From Brevundimonas lutea (lineage in GTDB: Bacteria > Pseudomonadota > Alphaproteobacteria > Caulobacterales > Caulobacteraceae), in the NCBI RefSeq assembly GCF_003704105.1, contig NZ_QUOQ01000002.1, positions 682,001 through 746,000 of the forward strand: a DNA stretch of 64,000 bases. Direction: 5' to 3'. A model generated the notes under the pieces. That model did no database searches, was not told the DNA's origin, and saw nothing but the letters and a program-made list of their open reading frames with translations. Position 1 is the first letter of the stretch. The number at the start of each line of letters is the position of its first letter. This document shows, piece after piece, positions 2,540 through 13,251 of this stretch. Both the position numbers and the translations under genes were made by a program.

Positions 2540-3049
2540 GTGTCGGACCAAACCGGCGACATCAAGGCGGCGGCAGGGTCCGCGACGCTGTCGGAGCTAT
2601 ACCGGCGTCACGCCGGCTGGCTGGTCCGGCGGCTGCGCGCTCGCTGGGGGGCAGAGGCGGACGATATCGTGCAGGATTCGTTCGTCCGGCTCTCGCGCTA
2701 CGACGACAGTACGTCGATCGGATCGCCACGGGCCCTTCTGATCAGGATCGCGTCCAACCTCGCCGCCGACCGCGCGCGCCGCGCCTCCCATCGAGCGAGC
2801 CCGTCGCTTGGGACCGAGGGGCTCAAGCCCGAGGGAATCAGCGGGGGCCAGTACGAGAGCACGCTTCTGCGCGAGGTGGTCGCCGACATGCCGGAGCATC
2901 TTCGCGACGTCTTCCTGCTCAGCCGGATCGCGGGCTTCCGTCATCGGGAGATCGCGCAGCGGCTCGGGATCTCGGAAAAGACGGTGGAGTGGCGATTGGC
3001 GCGGGCGCTGACCTGGTGCGTCGAGCGAATGCGGGGCGGGGATGACTGA
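2540..3049 (+). CDS. FecI-type ECF sigma factor of the lasso locus
   Basis: A 169-aa iron-uptake-type ECF sigma factor. Region 2 (about residues 15-80) contains LYRRHAGWLVRRLRARWG and DDIVQDSFVRLSRYD; region 4 (about 110-165) contains the HTH in FRHREIAQRLGISEKTVEWRLARAL. It should direct RNA polymerase to the promoter of the downstream receptor and isopeptidase genes when FecR relays a signal. The GTG start at 2540 sits just after a hairpin that buries its GGAGG. Its stop overlaps the fecR start by 8 bp, so the two are coupled. Sigma/FecR/TonB receptor sets are regular companions of isopeptidase-type lasso clusters in Caulobacterales and Sphingomonadales. Confidence 0.9.
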   Translation: MSDQTGDIKAAAGSATLSELYRRHAGWLVRRLRARWGAEADDIVQDSFVRLSRYDDSTSIGSPRALLIRIASNLAADRARRASHRASPSLGTEGLKPEGISGGQYESTLLREVVADMPEHLRDVFLLSRIAGFRHREIAQRLGISEKTVEWRLARALTWCVERMRGGDD

Positions 3050-4001
3050 GGGACGCCGGTCATCCACGTCCGCAGACGCCAGCCTTCAGGCGGCGGAATG
3101 GCACGCGCGCCTGGCTGCGGCGCAGGTGGATGCGGACGAGATCCGCGCTTTCGGAGACTGGTTGGAGAACGCCGAGAACGCTCGCGCCTGGTCCGAGATC
3201 CAGTCCGTCTGGGACGCGGCCGGCGGTCTGTCGGAGGACGCCGGCATCCAGGCGCTGACACGCCAGGCGCTCTTCAGGCCGCGCGGAAAGCGACCAGAGC
3301 TGAGATGGGTCTCCGGGGGCGCCGCCCTGGCCGCGACGGTCCTGGTGACGGTCGCGGCCGCCGGCTGGTGGACGCGGGGAGAGACCTACGCCAGTCCGCC
3401 GGATGGGCTCCGCCGGCTGACCCTCGAAGACGGGTCGACGCTGGTGCTCGACGCCGATTCCGAGGCGCGCGTTCGCTTGCGTGATACCGGCAGGACGATC
3501 GAACTGCGGGAAGGCCGCGCCTATTTCGACGTCGCCTTCGATGCGGCAAGGCCATTCTCGGTGCGGGCCGGGGAGGTGACCGTCACGGCGCTGGGCACGC
3601 GCTTCGACGTCGATCTCGGGCCGGACGGCGTCGCGGTGAACCTCTACGAGGGGCGGGTCATTCTCACGGGGGCCGGCGGGACCCTGTCGCTTCAACCGGG
3701 AGACGCCGCCGTCGCCACGTCCGAAGGCCTCCGCCGCGCGACGGAGCCGGCTGAGGCGGACGGGGGCTGGATCGACGGGCGGATGGTGTTCCGCGACGCC
3801 TTGCTGCGCGACGTCGTGGCCGAGATGAACCGGTACTTCGACAGACCGGTGCGGCTGTCTCCCGAGCTTGAGCGAACGCGGGTGAGCGGTGTCTTTTCGG
3901 CGGGCGACCGGGCCGGCTTCGTGAGCGCCCTGACCGCCATGCTTCCGGCGCAGGCGCGCACCGACGACACGGGCGCGACCCTCCTGACTCCGGCGCCCTG
4001 A
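3042..4001 (+). CDS. FecR-type anti-sigma / sigma regulator
   Basis: A 319-aa single-pass inner-membrane regulator. It has a cytoplasmic DUF4880 region (residues 8-60, with WHARLA, FGDWLENAENARAWSEI), a TM helix near 90-108 (GGAALAATVLVTVAAAGWW), a periplasmic FecR domain (about 118-215, LTLEDGSTLVLDADSEARV and GRAYFDVAFD) and a C-terminal STN-like segment (about 250-315, LLRDVVAEMNRYFDRPV). By family it passes the ligand-bound state of the TonB receptor to FecI. Its ATG overlaps the fecI stop. The receptor gene follows after 87 bp. Confidence 0.9.
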   Translation: MTEGRRSSTSADASLQAAEWHARLAAAQVDADEIRAFGDWLENAENARAWSEIQSVWDAAGGLSEDAGIQALTRQALFRPRGKRPELRWVSGGAALAATVLVTVAAAGWWTRGETYASPPDGLRRLTLEDGSTLVLDADSEARVRLRDTGRTIELREGRAYFDVAFDAARPFSVRAGEVTVTALGTRFDVDLGPDGVAVNLYEGRVILTGAGGTLSLQPGDAAVATSEGLRRATEPAEADGGWIDGRMVFRDALLRDVVAEMNRYFDRPVRLSPELERTRVSGVFSAGDRAGFVSALTAMLPAQARTDDTGATLLTPAP

Positions 4002-4088: not shown

Positions 4089-7037
4089 ATGACACCTGGG
4101 TTCGAAGGCTCCGTCGCAGCCGTTATCCTCGCCCTGGGCCTGGGCGTTCAGTCGCCGGCGCAGGCTCAAGCCCAGGCCCGGACGCCCGGGGCCGAGGCGC
4201 AGGACGTTCTGGTCCTGACCGTCCCGTCCGGGGACCTGTCGCGAGCCCTGGAAAGCCTCGCCGCACAGTCGGGCATCGACCTCATCTACGAATCCGGTCT
4301 GGTGGCCGGGCGGACCACTCCCGGATTGTCGGCGCGGACGACGGCCGCCGAGGCCATGCGGCGGCTGCTTCGGGACACCGGCCTCGTCGCGCGCAGAGCG
4401 AGCCCCGGGGTCTGGATCCTGGAACGGTCGGAGGCCACCCAGCTCGAGGAGATCGTGGTGACGGGAACCCTGTTGCGGGGTCGCGGACCGGTCGGTTCGC
4501 CTGTGGTCTCCCTGAGCCTCGACGAACTCGATCGCCGGGGCCATGCCTCGGTCGCCGACGCCGTCCAGGCTCTGCCGCAGAATTACGGGGGCACCGGAAC
4601 GCCGGCGGCCTTCCTCTCTTCGATCGAAGCCGGCAGCACCAACACCACCCTGAGCACGGGCGTGAACCTGCGGGGTCTCGGGCCCGACGCCACCCTGGTG
4701 CTGATCGACGGCCGCCGTCTGTCCGGCAGCGGAAGCCAGGGCGAGTTCAGCGACCTGTCAGCGGCGCCGGCGGCGGCGGTCGACCGTGTCGATGTGCTCC
4801 TGGACGGCGCCTCCGCCCTCTATGGCTCCGATGCCGTCGCAGGGGTGGTGAACGTGATCCTCAGGGACGACTACGAAGGAGCGGAGAGCCGTCTGCGGGT
4901 CGGGGCGGCGAAGGGCGGCGCCGAGGAGGTTCAGCTTTCGCATCTTGCGGGGACCGAATGGTCATCCGGATCGGCGCTGTTCTCCCTCGAGCATCGTGTC
5001 CAGAAGGGACTGAACGCCTCCGATCGTCCCTATACCGCGACCGGTGACCTCAGGGACTATGGAGGAAGCGACTGGCGAACGCCCTTCGCCTCGCCCGGCA
5101 ATATCGTCGCCTTCAACGCGGCTCTTGGAGGCTATGAGAGCCTTTGGGCGTTGCGGCCGGGAGCCGACGGGGTCGTCGACGACCCGGCGGACTTCGCAGC
5201 GGGCGAGGCCAACCTCGACCATCGACGTCGGGACGTGGACATCATTCCCGACCAGACGCGCTCGGCGCTCTTCGGCCGGCTTCGCCAGGAACTGACCAGT
5301 CGCGTGGACCTTCGGGCTGACCTCCGGCTCAGCCGTCGCGACTTCAACTTCCTCACCTATCACCACGCGCCGATCATGACGGTCACGGCCGCCAATCCCC
5401 AATTCGTGTCGCCGAACGGATCGTCCGCCCACGCGATCGCCTACAGTTTCATCGGCGACATGGCCCAGCCCCGGGTGACCGGATCCGTCGATCATCGCGC
5501 GGGCAGCCTCGGACTTGATGTCCAGCTCCCGGGGGACTGGGACGCCGAGATCTACGTGGCTCACGGCCGAGAACGCAGCGAAGGCGACACGCCGCTCGTC
5601 AACACGACCTTCCTTGACGAAGCGCTCGGCAATCGACCCGATGACCCGGCGACCGCGTGGTCGCCGGGTCGCAACGCCTACTTCAATCCCTTCGGAAGCG
5701 GGGGTCTGAACGATCCTGACACCATCGCCTTCGTGACCTCCGGCTTCAGCCGCAACTGGCTGGAAAGCGGCCTCACCACCGCGAGCGCCGTGGCCCAGGG
5801 CGAGCTTCTACAGGGTCCTGGCGGTCCGATCCGCCTCGCTGTCGGGACCCAGTGGCGCGAGGAGACCTTCGAAGGCGAGACCCGCAGCCTGGCCTCAGGC
5901 ACGACGCCTCTGACCACGAATCTCGCGGAGCGGCGCCGCGAGATCGCCGCGGCCTTCGCCGAACTCCGGGCGCCGCTGGTCGGCCCGGACAACGGTCGGC
6001 CCGGACTCCGTCGCCTGGACCTTTCCCTGGCCGGAAGGGCCGAGCGCTATTCCGATTTCGGCTCTACGGCCAATCCCAAGGTCGGGGTGACGTGGACGCC
6101 AATGGATGGGCTCGACGTCCGGACCAGCTGGGGGACCTCGTTCAGGGCCCCTTCGCTGAACGAGCTCAATGAGCCGGTGCGGATCGGGCCCACGACGACA
6201 CGCGAGGCGGGGGTGACACGGCTGGCGGTGATCACGCTTGGCGGCAACCCCGAGCTGGAGGCGGAAACCGCGGAAAGTTTGACCCTGGGGTTCGACTGGC
6301 GACCGGATACGGGACCGAGACTGTCGGCCACGCTGTTCGATATCGCCTTCGAAAACCGCATCGCCCGGCCCGTGGGCGAAAACATCCTGAACGCGCTCAC
6401 GGATCCGGCCCTGGCGCGCTTCGTCCAGCGCGTGGATCCCGCGAACAATCCGGAGGATCTGGCGCTGGTCGAGAGCCTCATCACCGACCCGCGGTTCCTG
6501 CTGCCCGGCGCCTTTCCGGCCTCCGCCTTCGCCGCGGTCCTCGACGGGCGATGGCTGAATACCGGAGAGCTGCGGGTCCGCGGTCTGGACATCTCGGCGA
6601 GCCATCACTGGCGGACACCATGGGGCGATATCGACGCGGAAGCGATGGGGACCCGACTCTTCGATTACGAGCGGCGCGTCACCCCGGACGCCGCGGCGGT
6701 CGACCGTGTCGGGGTGCTGGGACAGCCGGTCGAACTCCGCGCCCGCGCGTCTCTCGGCTGGACCCAGGGCGCCTGGGATGCGCGGCTCGGGATCAGCCAT
6801 GTGGCCGGCTATGACGACTTCCAGGGCGAGTCCATCGAGGCCTGGACGACAGGCGACGTGAGTTTGGGGTGGACGGGGCAGGGGCGTTGGGACGGGGTCA
6901 CGGCACAGGTCTTCGTCGCCAATGTCACGGACGCGGACCCCCCCTTCGTCGATCTCTCGACCGGGTATGGGTTCGATGCCGGCCAGGCCAGTCCGCTGGG
7001 CCGCACCGTCTCGCTGCACCTGGTCAAGCGCTGGTGA
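4089..7037 (+). CDS. TonB-dependent receptor with signalling (STN) domain, lasso-linked
   Basis: A 982-aa outer-membrane transducer. It starts with a signal peptide to AQAQA, then an STN secretin/TonB N-terminal domain (about residues 42-115, LTVPSGDLSRALESLAAQSGIDLIYESG), TonB-box-like EEIVVTGTLL, plug domain (about 125-250, NLRGLGPDATLVLIDGRRL and VDRVDVLLDGASALYGSDAVAGVVNV) and a 22-strand barrel ending in aromatic W982. STN receptors signal through FecR to FecI. In related loci the receptor is thought to import the threaded lasso peptide so the isopeptidase can open it. Its TGA overlaps the GTG of the isopeptidase gene. Confidence 0.93.
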   Translation: MTPGFEGSVAAVILALGLGVQSPAQAQAQARTPGAEAQDVLVLTVPSGDLSRALESLAAQSGIDLIYESGLVAGRTTPGLSARTTAAEAMRRLLRDTGLVARRASPGVWILERSEATQLEEIVVTGTLLRGRGPVGSPVVSLSLDELDRRGHASVADAVQALPQNYGGTGTPAAFLSSIEAGSTNTTLSTGVNLRGLGPDATLVLIDGRRLSGSGSQGEFSDLSAAPAAAVDRVDVLLDGASALYGSDAVAGVVNVILRDDYEGAESRLRVGAAKGGAEEVQLSHLAGTEWSSGSALFSLEHRVQKGLNASDRPYTATGDLRDYGGSDWRTPFASPGNIVAFNAALGGYESLWALRPGADGVVDDPADFAAGEANLDHRRRDVDIIPDQTRSALFGRLRQELTSRVDLRADLRLSRRDFNFLTYHHAPIMTVTAANPQFVSPNGSSAHAIAYSFIGDMAQPRVTGSVDHRAGSLGLDVQLPGDWDAEIYVAHGRERSEGDTPLVNTTFLDEALGNRPDDPATAWSPGRNAYFNPFGSGGLNDPDTIAFVTSGFSRNWLESGLTTASAVAQGELLQGPGGPIRLAVGTQWREETFEGETRSLASGTTPLTTNLAERRREIAAAFAELRAPLVGPDNGRPGLRRLDLSLAGRAERYSDFGSTANPKVGVTWTPMDGLDVRTSWGTSFRAPSLNELNEPVRIGPTTTREAGVTRLAVITLGGNPELEAETAESLTLGFDWRPDTGPRLSATLFDIAFENRIARPVGENILNALTDPALARFVQRVDPANNPEDLALVESLITDPRFLLPGAFPASAFAAVLDGRWLNTGELRVRGLDISASHHWRTPWGDIDAEAMGTRLFDYERRVTPDAAAVDRVGVLGQPVELRARASLGWTQGAWDARLGISHVAGYDDFQGESIEAWTTGDVSLGWTGQGRWDGVTAQVFVANVTDADPPFVDLSTGYGFDAGQASPLGRTVSLHLVKRW

Positions 7038-9535
7038 CCCGTCTGGTCGCTGTCCTGCTGGCGGCCGCCTGGGCCGCGGTCTGGCCCGCACAGGTCAATG
7101 CCGAGCCGGCGGGGCGTGAGGATCGCCTCTGGTCGATCGAGCACATGCTCGCCGCCGAGAGTTTCGGACGCGCGTCGATCGATCCGTCGGGCCGTCACCT
7201 GGTGTTCGAGCACCAGGGCCCCTGGACCACGGCGGCCCCTTTCGACCGGGGACCTCTGACACCCTGGATCGCCCGGCGCCTGATGGTCGCCCCGGTCGAT
7301 GGAGACGGCGCCCCACGGCAGGTGTGCGGAAACCGCGGGACGGGCTGTCTGGCGGGGCCGTGGTCGCCCTCCGGACGTCGTCTGCTGGTCTGGACCCTGA
7401 CCGGGCGCCGGTTCGGGGCCAGCGTGCTCGACGTCGCCAGCGGCGCGATCCGAGACCTGCCGGTCAGACCCGATGTGCCGGTCTTCGGCGAAACCGCGAT
7501 CTGGGCCGATGACGACACCCTGATCCTCGTCGATCGGCTGGACGGCGAGCTGCCCTATCACTTCACCTGGGAACCCGAGGCGCGCGCGTCCACGGCCGCC
7601 GCCTGGGCCGACATGGCGCGGGGAGAGTCCCCGACCGCCCTGGCCTGGGGCGTCCCGCCTTACGATCGCGACGCGCCGTCGAAACCGGTCGCCCGGGTGG
7701 TGGAGCTCGATCTCTCGGCGGAGGATCAGACAGCGCGCGTCCTGTGGAGCGGTAGGGTCTGGGACATGACCCTGTCGCCGTCGGGGGACGTCGTCGCCGT
7801 CATGGAGGCGGGCGAGCGGTTCGACCGCGCGCCGGGCGCGGCCCTACACCCCGCCGATCGGCCGGCGAGACGGACAATCTCCCTGATCAATCGGCGCGAC
7901 GGCGCCGTTTCCCGCCCGCTCGGCCACACGCCCGTGGTGGCGGGACTGATGAGCTGGTCCGACGACGATCGCCTCCTGGTCCACACGGTGGACGAGACCG
8001 GCGCCCCGGCGGACGACGGCCTGGTGAGCCTGGACGGCGGCGACGCGGTGACGCGGTGGCCGCTCGCCGGGCTTCGTCCCGATCCGGGCGCCGATATCAT
8101 CACCAGCCTGACGACCGTCAGGGCGTCGTGGAACGCGGGCTCTCCCGTGGTGCTGGCCGCTGAGGACTCCCGGGGCCGGTCCGACTGGTACAGGCTCGAG
8201 GCCGCAGGTCCCCGGCTGCTGACCGGCGACTTCAAGAGCGTCCCGCGAACCCTCGAGGCCCAGTGGGGAGACGCGCTGGTGGTCCTCTCGGATGACGCGG
8301 CATGGTCTCTCCGGGCGGGTGAACGACGGAAGATCCCCGGGTCGACAGGCGTTCGCGCCCTGACCACCCTCGACATCTGGGACGCCCAGCGGCTGCGCTG
8401 GAACCCCCGGCCGACCCGCGGACCGCTGGTGGTCCGGACGACGGCTGGGGGGATGGCGGCCCTTCATCCCGGCGGGAACGGCGGAGACCCGCGCACCGAG
8501 CCGCGCGGCGCCGTCCGAGGCTCTGTCCTGGCGGCGACGCCGGAGTGGCGCCTGGAGGTCGAGCGCGCGGGCGCGCAGGTCTCGCTTGCGCTGGTCGGGC
8601 CGGAGGCTGATCGCCGGGATCTGGCGACGCTCAACCGCGACCTGGCCGACATCGCGTTTTCAGAGCCCCTTCCGGTTCGTCACACGGGTCCGGGCGGCGA
8701 GCCGCTCGTCAGCTGGCTCTGGCCCGCGAAGGGCGTCGCGGGGCCGGCGCCCCTGGTCGCCCTGACCTATCCGGGCCCCGGGGGATACACCCTCGACGGT
8801 CCGGATGTGCGGCCGCCGTCGGACCCGGCGGCTTGGATTCCGATCGGCCAGACCCAGCTCTTCGCCTCGGCCGGGTTCGCCGTCCTCAAGCCGGGCCTGC
8901 CGCGCGACTTCTATCCGGCGGAGCCCGGGCCGGAGCTCGCCGCACAGCTGACGGCGGTCGTCGACGCGGCCATCGGCCAGTACCCGGATGTCATCGACGC
9001 CGACCGGCTCGGCTATTTCGGGCACAGTTTCGGAGGCTGGGCCGGCCTGGAGATCGCCACCCAGACAGACCTGTTCGACGCCATCGTCGCCGCCTCCGCG
9101 CCCTCGAACCTGGCCGCCATGTGGGGAGAATTCTCGCCCTGGTTCCGGGGCGCGCCACGCCACGGAGACTCCTTCCAGTTCCAGCAGGGATGGACCGAGA
9201 CGAGCCAGGGCGCGATGGGCGGACCGCCGTGGACCGATCCGCAGCGCTATGTGAGGGCCAGCCCGCTGTTTCGGGCCGATCGCATCGAAACGCCCCTCCT
9301 GATGCTGCACGGCGACCGTGAGCCCGCGCTTGCCCAGGCGGAGGCGATGTATTCGGCGCTCTGGCGGCTGAACCGGCCGGTTCGCCTCGTCGTCTATCGG
9401 GGAGAGGGCCATGTCCCGTCCTCTCCCGCCAACATCCGCCACATGCATGCCGAGATCCTCGGCTTCTTCAGACAGGCCTTCGGGATGCCGGGCCCTGACG
9501 ACCCGACCAGCGACGCACCCAGCTCTCGACCATGA
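7034..9535 (+). CDS. Lasso peptide isopeptidase (prolyl-oligopeptidase fold, AtxE-like)
   Basis: An 833-aa exported S9-family hydrolase. The signal peptide runs to AQVNA; an N-terminal beta-propeller (about 30-590, repeated blade patterns such as GRHLVFEHQG and WSPSGRRLLV) precedes an alpha/beta-hydrolase domain. The catalytic triad is visible: S665 in GHSFGG, D761 in HGDREP and H793 in GEGHVP. AtxE-type enzymes cut the lasso isopeptide bond and linearise the peptide. The start is GTG 7034, overlapping the receptor stop (GTGA), rather than the open frame back to 6869. The 3' end overlaps the convergent cyclase gene by 68 bp. It is longer than AtxE2 (about 690 aa), so the substrate is not proven. 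Confidence 0.85.
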   Translation: MTRLVAVLLAAAWAAVWPAQVNAEPAGREDRLWSIEHMLAAESFGRASIDPSGRHLVFEHQGPWTTAAPFDRGPLTPWIARRLMVAPVDGDGAPRQVCGNRGTGCLAGPWSPSGRRLLVWTLTGRRFGASVLDVASGAIRDLPVRPDVPVFGETAIWADDDTLILVDRLDGELPYHFTWEPEARASTAAAWADMARGESPTALAWGVPPYDRDAPSKPVARVVELDLSAEDQTARVLWSGRVWDMTLSPSGDVVAVMEAGERFDRAPGAALHPADRPARRTISLINRRDGAVSRPLGHTPVVAGLMSWSDDDRLLVHTVDETGAPADDGLVSLDGGDAVTRWPLAGLRPDPGADIITSLTTVRASWNAGSPVVLAAEDSRGRSDWYRLEAAGPRLLTGDFKSVPRTLEAQWGDALVVLSDDAAWSLRAGERRKIPGSTGVRALTTLDIWDAQRLRWNPRPTRGPLVVRTTAGGMAALHPGGNGGDPRTEPRGAVRGSVLAATPEWRLEVERAGAQVSLALVGPEADRRDLATLNRDLADIAFSEPLPVRHTGPGGEPLVSWLWPAKGVAGPAPLVALTYPGPGGYTLDGPDVRPPSDPAAWIPIGQTQLFASAGFAVLKPGLPRDFYPAEPGPELAAQLTAVVDAAIGQYPDVIDADRLGYFGHSFGGWAGLEIATQTDLFDAIVAASAPSNLAAMWGEFSPWFRGAPRHGDSFQFQQGWTETSQGAMGGPPWTDPQRYVRASPLFRADRIETPLLMLHGDREPALAQAEAMYSALWRLNRPVRLVVYRGEGHVPSSPANIRHMHAEILGFFRQAFGMPGPDDPTSDAPSSRP

Positions 9536-11171
9536 CCAGCCGCATGACCGCCGCCGATCCGCCCTGCCAGGCCAGCCGGTCGCGGTCGAGCTGTTCTTCC
9601 ACCGCGGCGGCGTCGATCAGGCCGAGCGCGCGCAGTGTCCCGTCGAGAAGATGGGTCCGGAACAGCGGCAGGGCGGCGGACAGTTCCCGGCTCTGCACAA
9701 TGGAATGATCTCCCTTGGACTGCCGGGCCAAGGTTCGGGGTGACAGTCGCGCCGAGAAGGCGTCTCGGGCCAGGCTCCGGTCGCAGGTTCCGTCCATGAG
9801 GACCGAGACCGGCGTCGCCAGGGCCCATTCCAGCAGCGGCTGGCTCATCAGGGGATGGATGACATCGGCCACCGAGCCGCGCCGGCTCTCGGTCACATAG
9901 GCGAGATTGGACACCAGGGCGCGCAGACGCAGGCGCTCCGCCAGGCTGAGGCCGTCCTCGTCCCGCAGCCAGGGATGGACCGGAGCGGAGGGCGTCGAGG
10001 CGCCGGAGCTGTTTCCAAACGGCGGTGACGGAGACGGCCCGCCCGACCGCGCCGCGCGGCTGAGATCGAAGATCGATCGGCGGGTCAGCCTGGCCAGGCG
10101 CCACGGCAGGCGGGAGATCCAGCCCGTCACCGGGCGCCGCCCGAGATGGTCGGCGAGAACCTCCGGACCCCAGCCCTGATGGAAGAGCGCGTCGCCACCC
10201 TTGCCGGTGAACAGCGTCGAGGCGCCGAGATCCGTGAGGACGTCGGCGATCGCGGCGTCGAACCCCGCGTCGGCCCGGCCGAGAGCCGGACGCAGGTCTC
10301 CGCCAAGCGCCATGAGATCGCCGGCGGCCGGAGGTCGCAGGGGGCGGGCAACCTCCCGCAGATCGACCCCGACATGATCGGCGGCCAGGCCAGCCCAGCG
10401 CCGCTCATCGGCGCCGGGGGCCTCCGCCCAGACAGTGATGGCGTGGCTCGGCGGCCTTTCGGCGCGACACAGGGCGCTGGCGACGATGGCGGAATCCAGT
10501 CCGCCGGAAAGTTCGGCGACGGCCGCACCGTCGGGGTGAAGCGTTCGGACGCAGTCATCCACCAGTCGCACCAGCCTGCGGCCGCGGGCTGCGGCGCTGC
10601 GGCGGCGCGCACGACCGACCCAGTCGACGGGATTCCAGGCCAGCTGACGCTGTCCGGTTCGCGTGTCGAGGACTTCGCCCGCGTCCAGCACCGCGATGCC
10701 GGTGAGGCCGGGCGCCGACAGACAGGCCAGCGGGTCCGACAGCAGGGTCGCGACCCCTGAAAGATCGAGCCGGACGGGGCCGGGGAGGCGGGACCACAAC
10801 CAGTCGGGAGCGGCGTCGGCGACAATCTGGACATCGTCGGCGGTCCAGATCGCCGCCTCCAGGGCGCCGCTGGGATCGCGCAGAACGGAAGCGATACGGC
10901 CGGTGTCATCGCGCGTCATGGCGATATAGCGCCCCCATCCCCGCTCGATCAGGTCCCGGGGCTGGGCGGGCGGCGCCATGGGAGCGTTGCCGAACCACTG
11001 GCCGACCACGATCAGGTCGCGATATCGCGTAAGAGGGGGCGGGGACGAGGCGCTGAAGCCCAGCCAGCCGCAGGCCGCCCGGTCGGCGGTGACCAGTCCA
11101 TGGGCCTTGGCCCTGTCGATGAGGTCGTCGAGGCGCCGCGGGGATGGCGCGTGGAGATGCAGGTAGCGCAC
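9468..11171 (-). CDS. Lasso peptide cyclase (asparagine synthetase-like, McjC family)
   Basis: A 567-aa C protein that activates the ring acid residue with ATP and forms the macrolactam with the core N-terminus. The C-terminal asparagine-synthetase domain has the PP-loop SGGLDS (residues 222-227) and a downstream FTGKGGDALFHQGWG segment; the N-terminal part resembles a glutamine-amidotransferase fold with no catalytic Cys at position 2. GTG 11171 is chosen because it lies 4 bases after the B-protein stop, although the frame is open to 11228. It completes the A-B-C order. Its 3' end runs 68 bp into the opposite-strand isopeptidase gene. Confidence 0.9.
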   Translation of the reverse strand: MRYLHLHAPSPRRLDDLIDRAKAHGLVTADRAACGWLGFSASSPPPLTRYRDLIVVGQWFGNAPMAPPAQPRDLIERGWGRYIAMTRDDTGRIASVLRDPSGALEAAIWTADDVQIVADAAPDWLWSRLPGPVRLDLSGVATLLSDPLACLSAPGLTGIAVLDAGEVLDTRTGQRQLAWNPVDWVGRARRRSAAARGRRLVRLVDDCVRTLHPDGAAVAELSGGLDSAIVASALCRAERPPSHAITVWAEAPGADERRWAGLAADHVGVDLREVARPLRPPAAGDLMALGGDLRPALGRADAGFDAAIADVLTDLGASTLFTGKGGDALFHQGWGPEVLADHLGRRPVTGWISRLPWRLARLTRRSIFDLSRAARSGGPSPSPPFGNSSGASTPSAPVHPWLRDEDGLSLAERLRLRALVSNLAYVTESRRGSVADVIHPLMSQPLLEWALATPVSVLMDGTCDRSLARDAFSARLSPRTLARQSKGDHSIVQSRELSAALPLFRTHLLDGTLRALGLIDAAAVEEQLDRDRLAWQGGSAAVMRLVMVESWVRRWSGRQGPASRRPV

Positions 11172-11175
11172 CGGT

Positions 11176-11796
11176 TCAGACCGCCATGATCGGCGTATAG
11201 AGGCCGATGCGATCAGGATCGTCGTCAAGCGCGTATGGACCGATCTGCAGCCAGCAATGGGCGGCGAAAGGCCAGGTCTTGACCCCGAATACCCAGTCCG
11301 CCTTCACGCCCGAGCGGGCCAGGGCCGCGCCAAGCAAGCGGGCGCGCCACAGGCATTCGCCCTGCGGGGTGATGAAGGGAAGCATTCCTTGATACGTCGC
11401 GATGACGGAGGCGGTGCGGGCGCTGTCGGCGACGGCGGCCACGCGGCGGGACGGCGAAACGGTGGGGATGTCGCCTTGGGAGGCGACCGGGCCGCGGACA
11501 GCCGCGAGGACCCGCCAGACATCAAGGGGGAGCCGCCACGAAACGATCGCGGGATGGGGCGCCGTCGGTTGGGGCGGAAGCGGCCGGCGGGGCGCCGGGC
11601 CCCTTCGCGAGACCAGGCCTTCGGCCGCGAGCGCCGTCAGGATATCCTCGGGACCGGTCAACAGGCCGCCGGCGCCCGGCTGTAGCGCGCGGCCGGGATC
11701 GGGTATCTGGAGATAGGCGTCGCGCGCGGCGTCCAGGACGATGAGGTCGTCATCGCAACGCGCCATGTGACTGTGGGCGGTGAGCCACGCGATCAT
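11176..11796 (-). CDS. Lasso peptide B protein (RRE plus leader peptidase, McjB family)
   Basis: A 206-aa fused B protein. The N-terminal about 70 residues are PqqD-like (DDDLIVLDAARDAYLQI) and should be the RiPP recognition element that binds the leader. The C-terminal transglutaminase-like protease domain shows Cys148 in QGECLWRA, His180 in FAAHCWLQIG and Asp at 191-193 in LDDDPDRIG, the expected triad. It removes the leader so the cyclase can close the ring. ATG 11796 has GGAGA about 9 bases upstream; longer in-frame starts would run through the precursor gene. It lies 50 bp after the precursor stop. Confidence 0.9.
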   Translation of the reverse strand: MIAWLTAHSHMARCDDDLIVLDAARDAYLQIPDPGRALQPGAGGLLTGPEDILTALAAEGLVSRRGPAPRRPLPPQPTAPHPAIVSWRLPLDVWRVLAAVRGPVASQGDIPTVSPSRRVAAVADSARTASVIATYQGMLPFITPQGECLWRARLLGAALARSGVKADWVFGVKTWPFAAHCWLQIGPYALDDDPDRIGLYTPIMAV

Positions 11797-11846
11797 GGGC
11801 AGTCTCCGGTGCAGGCGGGCGCGACCTGCGCCCGCCTGCGCGCCCG

Positions 11847-11957
11847 TCAGGCCATGGGCCGGTAGGGCTGGAGGTCGGCTTCCGTCACGGTGATGTCGAA
11901 GCCGCCGCGGGTCAGTTCGGACACCTGTCCGAGCCGAATGATGCGAAGACGGGTCAT
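11847..11957 (-). CDS. Lasso peptide precursor (A gene)
   Basis: A 36-aa precursor, too short for most ORF callers. The leader is MTRLRIIRLGQVSELTR and the predicted core is GGFDITVTEADLQPYRPMA. Lasso leaders carry Thr at the second-last position, seen here as T16-R17, and the core starts with Gly. Glu9 of the core is correctly placed for a 9-residue G1-E9 macrolactam ring, as in other Caulobacterales lasso peptides. An AAGGAG ribosome site lies 9 bases before the ATG. It is directly upstream of B and C on the same strand. Ring size and processing site are inferred. Confidence 0.85.
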   Translation of the reverse strand: MTRLRIIRLGQVSELTRGGFDITVTEADLQPYRPMA

Positions 11958-12004
11958 GCGTGTCTCCTTGGAGAAGCGCCCCAGGATTGAGGCTTCGCCA
12001 GACC

Positions 12005-12055
12005 ACACCTCCGCTGGAACCGCCGCAATCTATACTTGAACTATTGTCAGCGGCC
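12005..12055 (-). promoter_or_regulatory. Candidate promoter region of the lasso ABC operon
   Basis: An AT-rich patch stands out in GC-rich DNA just upstream of the precursor. On the minus strand it reads CTGACA then TATAGA, but the hexamers are only 10 bp apart, so a standard sigma-70 pair is not clear. It overlaps the stop of the XRE gene. The location is the main support. Confidence 0.3.
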
Positions 12056-12529
12056 GGGCGTGGGCCGCCCGTCCCGCAGGTCGGCTTCGCCTTCGCGCAT
12101 CCAGGCCCGCGCGGTCTCGGCGCGGGTGACGGCCTCCGAAGCGACCCGGTCGAAGGCCTCGGTGAAGACGGTGATCAGCAGGCGCGTGTCGAGGGTCCGC
12201 AGGTCGTCGCCGAGACGCTTGTCGAGCCGCTGCAGGGCGATGCTCAGCACCAGCATCAGCTTGTTGTCGGCGCAGCGGGCGGCGAAGGCGGGCGATCCGA
12301 TCCACAGCGCGGCCTGGAGGGCGTAGGGGTCTGAGTTGGTGGCCCGGGCGAACCGCTCGACATGATCGAGGTTGATCCTGTTCGCTCCGCCCTCGAAGCT
12401 TTCATAGGTCCTTTCGTGTAGAGACATGGCGGCCGCGACCTCCCGGACCGTCAGCTTTCTTTCGCGCCGTACGGCCCTGGCGGCGGCTCCGATGAGCTGG
12501 GCGTCGCTGCGCCGGGGCCTGCGCGCCAT
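12047..12529 (-). CDS. XRE-family HTH regulator beside the lasso operon
   Basis: A 160-aa protein. The N-terminal HTH (about residues 8-62) contains LIGAAARAVRRERKLTVREVAAAMSLHERTYESFEGG; the C-terminal helical half (ALQRLDKRLGDDLRTLDTRLLITVFTEAFDRVA) is unlike a known ligand domain. It is on the same strand as the precursor, with 89 bp between them, so it may be co-transcribed with or control the biosynthetic operon. ATG 12529 was chosen because the HTH begins there; the frame is open to 12607. It diverges from a GntR-type gene. Confidence 0.75.
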   Translation of the reverse strand: MARRPRRSDAQLIGAAARAVRRERKLTVREVAAAMSLHERTYESFEGGANRINLDHVERFARATNSDPYALQAALWIGSPAFAARCADNKLMLVLSIALQRLDKRLGDDLRTLDTRLLITVFTEAFDRVASEAVTRAETARAWMREGEADLRDGRPTPGR

Positions 12530-12636
12530 CACACCGGCGCCCCGCGGCGCGGTTCCTGAGGCGTCGCGCCGGGGAGGGCGACGAAAAGGCGCGGAAAGAC
12601 GCGCCACGCGCGACGAGCCTGTATCGACGGGGCAAC

Positions 12637-13251
12637 GTGGCGCCGATGATGATGGCGAGAGATCACGAGCCCTACGCCAAGGCCCTGGCCGCCCTGCGGG
12701 AGCGGATCGCCTCCGGCGTCCTGAACGGGGGCGATCCGGTCGTGGTCATGCTGGAGGCGGAGGCTCTCGACCTGTCCCCGACGCCGTTGCGCGAGGCGTT
12801 GGCGCGGCTCGAGGGCGAGGGTCTGGTGCGACGGGTGCACCGGGGCGGTTATCGCGTCGCCCATCTGGGCGCGGGCGAGATCGCCGAACACTATCGTTTC
12901 CAGGCGCGGCTCGTCGCGACCTCCCTGGCCTTGGCCCCGCCGCCCGTCTCGGCGCGCTCGCCCACGACTCCGGCAGAGGCCTCGGAAGCCCTGGCCGGAC
13001 TGCTGGGCGATGTGGTGCGCGGCACGGGGGATCGCGCCCTCCTGGCCGCCTGGCTCGCCTCGACCGGACGCCTCGAGCGCGTCCGTCGCCGCGAGGCCGC
13101 CCGGCTCGACGGTCTCGTCGAGGAGCATCGCAGGGTCTCGGCGGCCCTGGCCGCGGGAACCGGTCAGGCCAGGACGGCGGTGGCGGGCGCCTATGACCGC
13201 CGCATCGAAGCGGCGGGTCGCCTGTCCGACTCCGCCGCCTCGACGGGCTGA
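12637..13251 (+). CDS. GntR-family transcriptional regulator
   Basis: A 204-aa protein with an N-terminal winged HTH typical of GntR (YAKALAALRERIASGVL and LSPTPLREALARLEGEGLVRRVHRGGYRV, about residues 12-80). The C-terminal all-helical region is shorter and more Ala/Arg-rich than a full FadR effector domain. Start GTG 12637; ATG 12646 is an alternative. It diverges from the XRE gene beside the lasso operon, so a role in lasso regulation is possible but inferred. Its last 61 bp overlap the convergent membrane-protein gene. Confidence 0.8.
   Translation: MAPMMMARDHEPYAKALAALRERIASGVLNGGDPVVVMLEAEALDLSPTPLREALARLEGEGLVRRVHRGGYRVAHLGAGEIAEHYRFQARLVATSLALAPPPVSARSPTTPAEASEALAGLLGDVVRGTGDRALLAAWLASTGRLERVRRREAARLDGLVEEHRRVSAALAAGTGQARTAVAGAYDRRIEAAGRLSDSAASTG

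Follow-up and report, generated by a model that had tools for sequence, protein, structure and literature searches.

A putative isopeptidase-type lasso peptide cluster of Brevundimonas lutea with a predicted 19-residue core and a candidate regulatory element upstream of its precursor gene

The window, that is the whole stretch of 64,000 nucleotides of Brevundimonas lutea DNA that was analysed, contains a very short open reading frame next to two genes resembling lasso peptide biosynthesis enzymes. This raises the questions of whether the frame is a genuine lasso precursor, what product it would give and how its expression might be controlled. The initial annotation had placed a 36-codon precursor ahead of the B and C genes, which is borne out by translation and gene order, the gene being on the minus strand:

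11847..11957, minus strand: precursor gene A, recognised by its translation, its homologues and its codon differences
11957..11907, minus strand: leader of gene A, 17 residues
11906..11850, minus strand: core of gene A, 19 residues, with a predicted G1-E9 ring
11849..11847, minus strand: stop codon of gene A
11176..11796, minus strand: gene B, an RRE-like N-terminus fused to a leader peptidase of transglutaminase fold (NF033537, PF13471)
9468..11171, minus strand: gene C, an asparagine-synthetase-type lasso cyclase (PF00733); its start is uncertain and the GTG at 11171 was taken

Read from 11957 to 11847, the 36 codons and the stop translate to MTRLRIIRLGQVSELTRGGFDITVTEADLQPYRPMA, which divides into the leader MTRLRIIRLGQVSELTR and the core GGFDITVTEADLQPYRPMA; an AAGGAG box, read directly from the sequence, immediately precedes the ATG. 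Translation also confirms the Thr at -2 (T16), the core length of 19 residues and the acid at core position 9, a Glu, all of which had been proposed before. Gene A thus displays the hallmarks of a class II lasso precursor, namely Thr at -2, an acid within core positions 7-9 and a short leader-plus-core frame directly upstream of B and C. In two other Brevundimonas genomes, three homologues sharing 56-64% identity with gene A are located upstream of B genes, and the differences at the three codon positions between gene A and these relatives are 9/10/19, 11/10/17 and 12/10/16, the third positions differing most. Because homologues occupy the same place in other clusters and the codon differences concentrate at third positions, gene A is considered a real gene.

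Curated models do not recognise this precursor above their cutoffs. The best of them, NF033522 (benenodin family), reaches 16 bits against a cutoff of 33 (E 0.0081), on which benenodin family membership was rejected; the three relatives likewise go unrecognised by curated models. A profile of the four precursors, run against 390 genomes of the family, returned the same four at 1.2e-21 to 7.8e-26, followed by the next match at 7.6e-5. Since the profile is strong only for these four, the core group is present in 3 of the 390 genomes. The source genome has one C match and one precursor match.

The cores of the relatives, GGFENLVTEADKRPYIQMA, GGFTELVREADKQPYNIMA and GGFTEYVREADRRPYDFIA, agree with the window core at 12, 12 and 10 of 19 positions, and together the four follow the pattern GGF...V.EAD..PY..A. 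Invariant positions are G1, G2, F3, V7, E9, A10, D11, P14, Y15 and A19, whereas position 4 is D, T or E. The invariance of G1, E9 and D11 and the variability of D4 support the predicted G1-E9 ring. E9 had been described as the single acid of the ring; E9 is indeed present, but D4 also falls inside the putative ring. Known lasso rings comprise 7-9 residues. As candidate ring acids, D4 was rejected because position 4 varies among the four cores and D11 because an 11-residue ring would exceed the known range. Overall, the reading of gene A as a lasso precursor with this core, this cleavage site and this ring is well supported by the gene neighbourhood and by conservation.

For a broader view, precursors were gathered around the C matches of 67 genomes and at 33 named loci, with a nearby B gene and a Shine-Dalgarno sequence required, which yielded 94 distinct cores. 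Of 180 candidates, 68 lacked a Shine-Dalgarno sequence or a suitably spaced B gene and were dropped, although some of these looked genuine; a few of the retained cores appear spurious (e.g. GCWSSAREYFRSDKGRQ). The acid is at position 9 in 77 of the 94 cores (76 of them Glu) and at position 8, not 9, in the other 17. The search pattern required an acid at 7-10, along with Thr at -2, so the absence of acid-free cores is imposed, although the peak at position 9 is still informative. E9 combined with an acid at 11 and an aromatic residue at 15 is common to 13 of the 94 cores, including those of the window and its three relatives.

The predicted peptide is new by these comparisons, yet of a known lasso kind. 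As the initial annotation had anticipated, the core has no counterpart among 43 published cores: the best in-register identity is 3/19, no better than that of 2000 shuffles with G1 and E9 fixed, whose best values range from 3 to 8 and mostly fall at 4-5. The 43 come from a published table of 62 cores (PMC12427821). A search of the full text of the open-licence literature for the core sequence gave 0 matches. Together with the sub-cutoff score of the best curated model, these results make it plausible that the precursor is unlisted. The features singled out earlier as unusual are nevertheless familiar ones. A Gly-Gly start also occurs in microcin J25, acinetodin, citrocin, burhizin and ubonodin (published table), an acid at 9 is the commonest arrangement among the relatives, and tails related to PYRPM exist in caulosegnin III (...ARYDPM) and in GSDMGTLPETDFGVWRPLA.

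Known systems resemble the window in different respects: (i) caulosegnin III and caulonodin VI of Caulobacter, also Caulobacteraceae, share the 19-residue core, Glu at 9 and an aromatic-x-P tail (PMC12427821), whereas the window core has a GGF start and EAD..PY, and caulosegnin III is not among its eight best in-register matches, which share 3/19; (ii) brevunsin, which according to the available part of PMC7549694 was produced heterologously, comes from the same genus (Brevundimonas diminuta), but its 21-residue core (GDMGEEVIEGLVRDSLYPPAG in the review table) belongs to another group; (iii) benenodin-1 has a tail that likewise ends in PM, and the leader region of gene A resembles NF033522, but the ring acid of benenodin-1 is at 8. 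The core group, missed by curated models, would add to the isopeptidase-type lasso peptides.

Two further kinds of precursor were observed in the related clusters. Twenty-five of the 94 cores start with Asp (LTR/D......E9) and a further 24 with Ala. The Asp-start type may already be known, as the core of L155, DGMGEEFIEGLVRDSLYPPAG, is close to brevunsin. Moreover, 20 of 106 clusters contain single frames upstream of B that carry two to three tandem leader-like and core units, each with TR/A and Glu at core position 9 (18 distinct frames). These look like multi-core lasso precursors, and their inner cores would need C-terminal trimming; the terms multicore, multi-core and multiple core are absent from the reviews searched for them.

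Asp-start loci: L032, L034, L036, L073, L089, L096, L104, L114, L155 and others
Tandem-unit loci, first half: L108/L109, L103/L106, L094, L101, L112, L113, L123, L124, L100
Tandem-unit loci, second half: L153, L080, L082, L097, L099, L115, L117, L125, L159

The biosynthetic enzymes, a B protein with Cys-His-Asp and an asparagine synthetase-type C protein, are those expected of a class II lasso locus. The B protein scores 51.8 bits with the lasso B2 model NF033537 (cutoff 33) and 62.4 bits with PF13471 (Transglut_core3); in an alignment of 15 proteins its Cys148 and His180 are invariant and Asp192 is at least 90% conserved. Its N-terminus is taken for an RRE by the look of its sequence only. 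The C protein scores 82.7 bits with PF00733 (Asn_synthase), whereas its 47.3 bits with NF033561 remain under the cutoff of 300. Searches of the PDB with the single sequences gave, for B, an unrelated best match at E 0.032 and, for C, none at 0.01; a profile of B was equally unproductive. C matches at 1e-15 occur in 67 of 131 Brevundimonas genomes, with identities of 27-42%; merging split matches reduced 103 rows to 101.

The neighbourhood of A, B and C is completed by the following features:

2540..3049, plus strand: FecI-like ECF sigma factor (PF08281 53.4 bits, PF04542 32.1 bits)
3042..4001, plus strand: FecR-like anti-sigma factor (PF04773 71.3 bits)
4089..7037, plus strand: TonB-dependent receptor (barrel 123 bits, Plug 60.8 bits) that also carries an STN signalling domain (31.9 bits against a cutoff of 28.4)
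7034..9535, plus strand: putative lasso isopeptidase of the S9 family (PF00326 78.8 bits; Ser665, Asp761, His793)
12028..12048, minus strand: TATA-N7-TATA element GACAATAGTTCAAGTATAGAT, a proposed operator, its centre 81 nt before the start of A; it overlaps the stop codon of the XRE gene
12047..12529, minus strand: XRE-type helix-turn-helix protein (PF13560), the proposed regulator of A; the ATG at 12529 was chosen as start
12637..13251, plus strand: GntR-type regulator (PF00392 47.7 bits), divergent from XRE-A-B-C

The FecI, FecR, receptor and S9 genes lie on the strand opposite to C, tail to tail with it, and the 3' ends of the convergent C and isopeptidase genes overlap by 68 bases (9468-9535). 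An alignment of 22 proteins shows no variation at Ser665 and His793 of the putative isopeptidase and at least 90% conservation at Asp761. The protein scores 43.5 bits with NF033523 (Atxe2 family), far from the cutoff of 400 that defines membership. With its profile, AtxE2 is matched at 7.5e-19 and SpI-IsoP at 5e-7, some other S9 peptidases ranking ahead of them. A structural model (pLDDT 79.2, pTM 0.81) gives a similar picture: in Foldseek it is nearer to other S9 peptidases than to AtxE2 (rank 27) or SpI-IsoP (rank 39), and the 50 matches listed by VIA-align are other S9 peptidases, with no lasso isopeptidase among them. The protein shares the S9 fold of AtxE2 but is longer (833 residues, compared with 705 for the AtxE2 chain). 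It is therefore read as an isopeptidase from its gene context; the fold alone would not identify one. Relatives lie in clusters of the same type, with an isopeptidase match at 27 of the 33 named loci.

As described in the available part of PMC9266682, a GntR gene, a TonB transporter and a sigma/anti-sigma pair are constant companions of lasso isopeptidase clusters; the astexin clusters of Asticcacaulis combine an isopeptidase with these same genes, and the biological function of isopeptidase-type lasso peptides is called enigmatic. In the window an S9 gene, a TonB receptor, a sigma/anti-sigma pair and a GntR gene surround A-B-C, and by this gene content the locus is an isopeptidase-type lasso cluster in Brevundimonas, although its core is unrelated to the astexins.

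These components could cooperate in the following manner. B would bind the leader and cut after Arg17, with Thr at -2; C would activate Glu9 with ATP and join it to the amine of Gly1, so that the ring encloses the threaded tail. The resulting lasso of 19 residues would have a calculated monoisotopic mass of 2061.98 ([M+2H]2+ 1031.999), compared with 2079.994 for the linear core. The peptide would probably be re-imported via the STN/TonB receptor of the cluster, which may signal through FecR/FecI and so sense the returning peptide or its cargo, and the putative isopeptidase would linearise it. The neighbouring XRE protein probably sets precursor transcription by acting at the element 81 nt upstream, and GntR would be a second regulator. 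The enzymatic steps are proposed from family knowledge, and we infer the lasso topology, the order of events, uptake, sensing and the XRE-element pairing.

Taken as a whole, a class II lasso precursor processed by B and C, with receptor uptake, isopeptidase linearisation and XRE/GntR control, is very probably the correct account of the locus. The precursor might be real and its product different, with cleavage one residue later, so that Gly2 comes first and the same Glu closes an 8-residue ring, or with D4 or D11 in use. Gly at both positions, the invariance of D11 in the four relatives and the 17 related cores with an acid at 8 would fit such a product, but Thr at -2 suits cleavage before Gly1, D4 is not conserved and an 11-residue ring lies outside the known sizes, which leaves this variant unlikely.

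Still less probable is a decayed or silent cluster that makes no lasso peptide under any normal condition: the reading frames are all open, the catalytic residues are kept and the upstream element is present, even though the isopeptidase and the cyclase of the source genome are divergent. That gene A is a chance frame beside B and C, as its shortness and the failure of curated models might suggest, can practically be dismissed in view of the homologues at the equivalent place in other clusters and the excess of third-position codon differences.

The XRE protein scores 27.0 bits with PF13560, exactly at the cutoff of 27, and 21.2 with PF01381, under its cutoff of 23; the helix-turn-helix domain is also apparent from its model (pLDDT 89.6), where the N-terminal domain is of the Cro type and the C-terminal half is helical. 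The N-terminus superimposes on ClgR (3f52_A; TM 0.85 by target, rmsd 1.3, Foldseek E 2.7e-3). Its relatives are mostly 40-55% identical. In the genus, 94 of 99 XRE matches are found upstream of a C match at a distance of at most 5 kb (48 on the same strand, 46 on the opposite one), which makes XRE an almost constant neighbour of the cyclase gene; 9 of 101 C matches have no XRE match within 5 kb. C and XRE occur together in 64 of the 131 genomes and are both absent from 62; C alone is found in 3, where it lies on contigs of 5-8 kb, and XRE alone in 2 (Fisher 5e-31, a value that ignores the relatedness of the genomes). XRE matches occur in 138 of 390 family genomes and 5 of 22 genera.

The element upstream of gene A was initially read as a strict palindrome, a description that was replaced by a 21-bp weight matrix. 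With at most one mismatch allowed, the window-only pattern ATANTTNAANTAT recurs 22 times in 1.17 Mb of cluster DNA, beyond the window itself. Of these matches, 19 (some of them the same cluster counted twice) stand either 80-82 nt ahead of a precursor or at a distance of 856-884 nt from an XRE gene in divergent orientation; the remaining three lie elsewhere (L041, L068, L070). Of 106 clusters, 93 score above 9 with the matrix (54 distinct sites), an in-sample result since the matrix was trained on the clusters scored. In 318 local shuffles the 95th percentile was 7.3 and the highest score 19.7; the window element reaches 23.6, towards the low end of the positive scores. In held-out tests, the 99% shuffle level is exceeded by 50 of 54 divergent-XRE clusters when the matrix comes from clusters with a codirectional XRE gene, and by 41 of 46 when the roles are exchanged, together 91 of 100. 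On the reverse strand, 26 of 54 and 16 of 46 clusters pass as well, which is what a near-palindromic element would produce.

Its position is similarly constant: the centre lies 72-89 nt before the start codon of the first precursor in 69 of 72 placeable clusters, with a mode of 81, the value found in the window. The box columns reach up to 2 bits, compared with 0.03-0.73 for 30 upstream columns. A genus-wide search of the 131 genomes with the pattern ATASNNNNNRTATAGNT yields 89 matches, exactly one of them in the source genome (12028-12044). Sixty-four are located at most 4.5 kb upstream of a C match, all on its strand and covering 58 of 101 clusters, against about 0.1 expected for unrelated sites; this is so partly by construction, since the pattern was drawn from cluster sites, and the window-only pattern and the held-out matrices are the cleaner tests. 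The other 25 matches are distributed over genomes with C (13) and without C (12). By eye, a backwards control pattern is at least as frequent in the genus genomes as ATASNNNNNRTATAGNT. Family-wide, matches occur in at least 160 of 390 genomes, many of them in some other genera. A search for a sigma-70 consensus promoter at 11780-12700 found none.

Which protein reads the element? Thirteen of the 106 clusters score at most 9 with the matrix, three of them being contig-end pieces. In five low-scoring Brevundimonas clusters the boxes are one base closer together, and in two from Caulobacter they stand at a different spacing. The XRE proteins of the five form one tree group with a support of 93/45, which is not firm. 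An Asp occurs in the XRE recognition helix in 7 of 9 low-scoring clusters, namely these five and the two from Caulobacter, and in 0 of 91 others, at a position that we take to correspond to the base-contacting Gln33 of the phage 434 repressor. This substitution, noticed afterwards and confined to two lineages, points to the XRE protein as the reader of the element. The proposed pairing draws on this late observation and on co-occurrence, and in the latter respect GntR, the other possible reader, is just as cluster-linked as XRE: of its 74 other matches in the genus, 73 have a C start no more than 6 kb away.

We propose that the XRE regulator and the element control precursor expression; the element may serve activation or repression, or may belong to the promoter itself. 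The more general idea, that Caulobacteraceae lasso clusters are run by a dedicated module in which XRE reads TATA-N7-TATA about 81 nt before the first precursor, beside GntR and FecI/FecR, has in our estimate an even chance of being right. Searches of the open-licence literature turned up no XRE-type lasso-cluster regulator, although the closed literature may hold one, and the terms HTH and helix-turn-helix are absent from PMC9266682. If the module is real, it would be a direct handle on when these lasso peptides are made, and a regulator gene with a fixed element over about 100 clusters would allow the inducing signal, and hence the purpose of the peptides, to be tested.

In many clusters a further conserved block is present about 30 bases downstream of the element and about 40 nt before the start codon; it reads GGGCGCT and continues with (C/G)ACTGG-like bases. 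This block may be a promoter or 5' leader element, and it has no good counterpart in the window. XRE homologues without a nearby C match were found at L167 (G064), L166 (G047) and G018:C1:680516-681781, in the last case with a GntR homologue beside it, and these are possibly cluster remnants.
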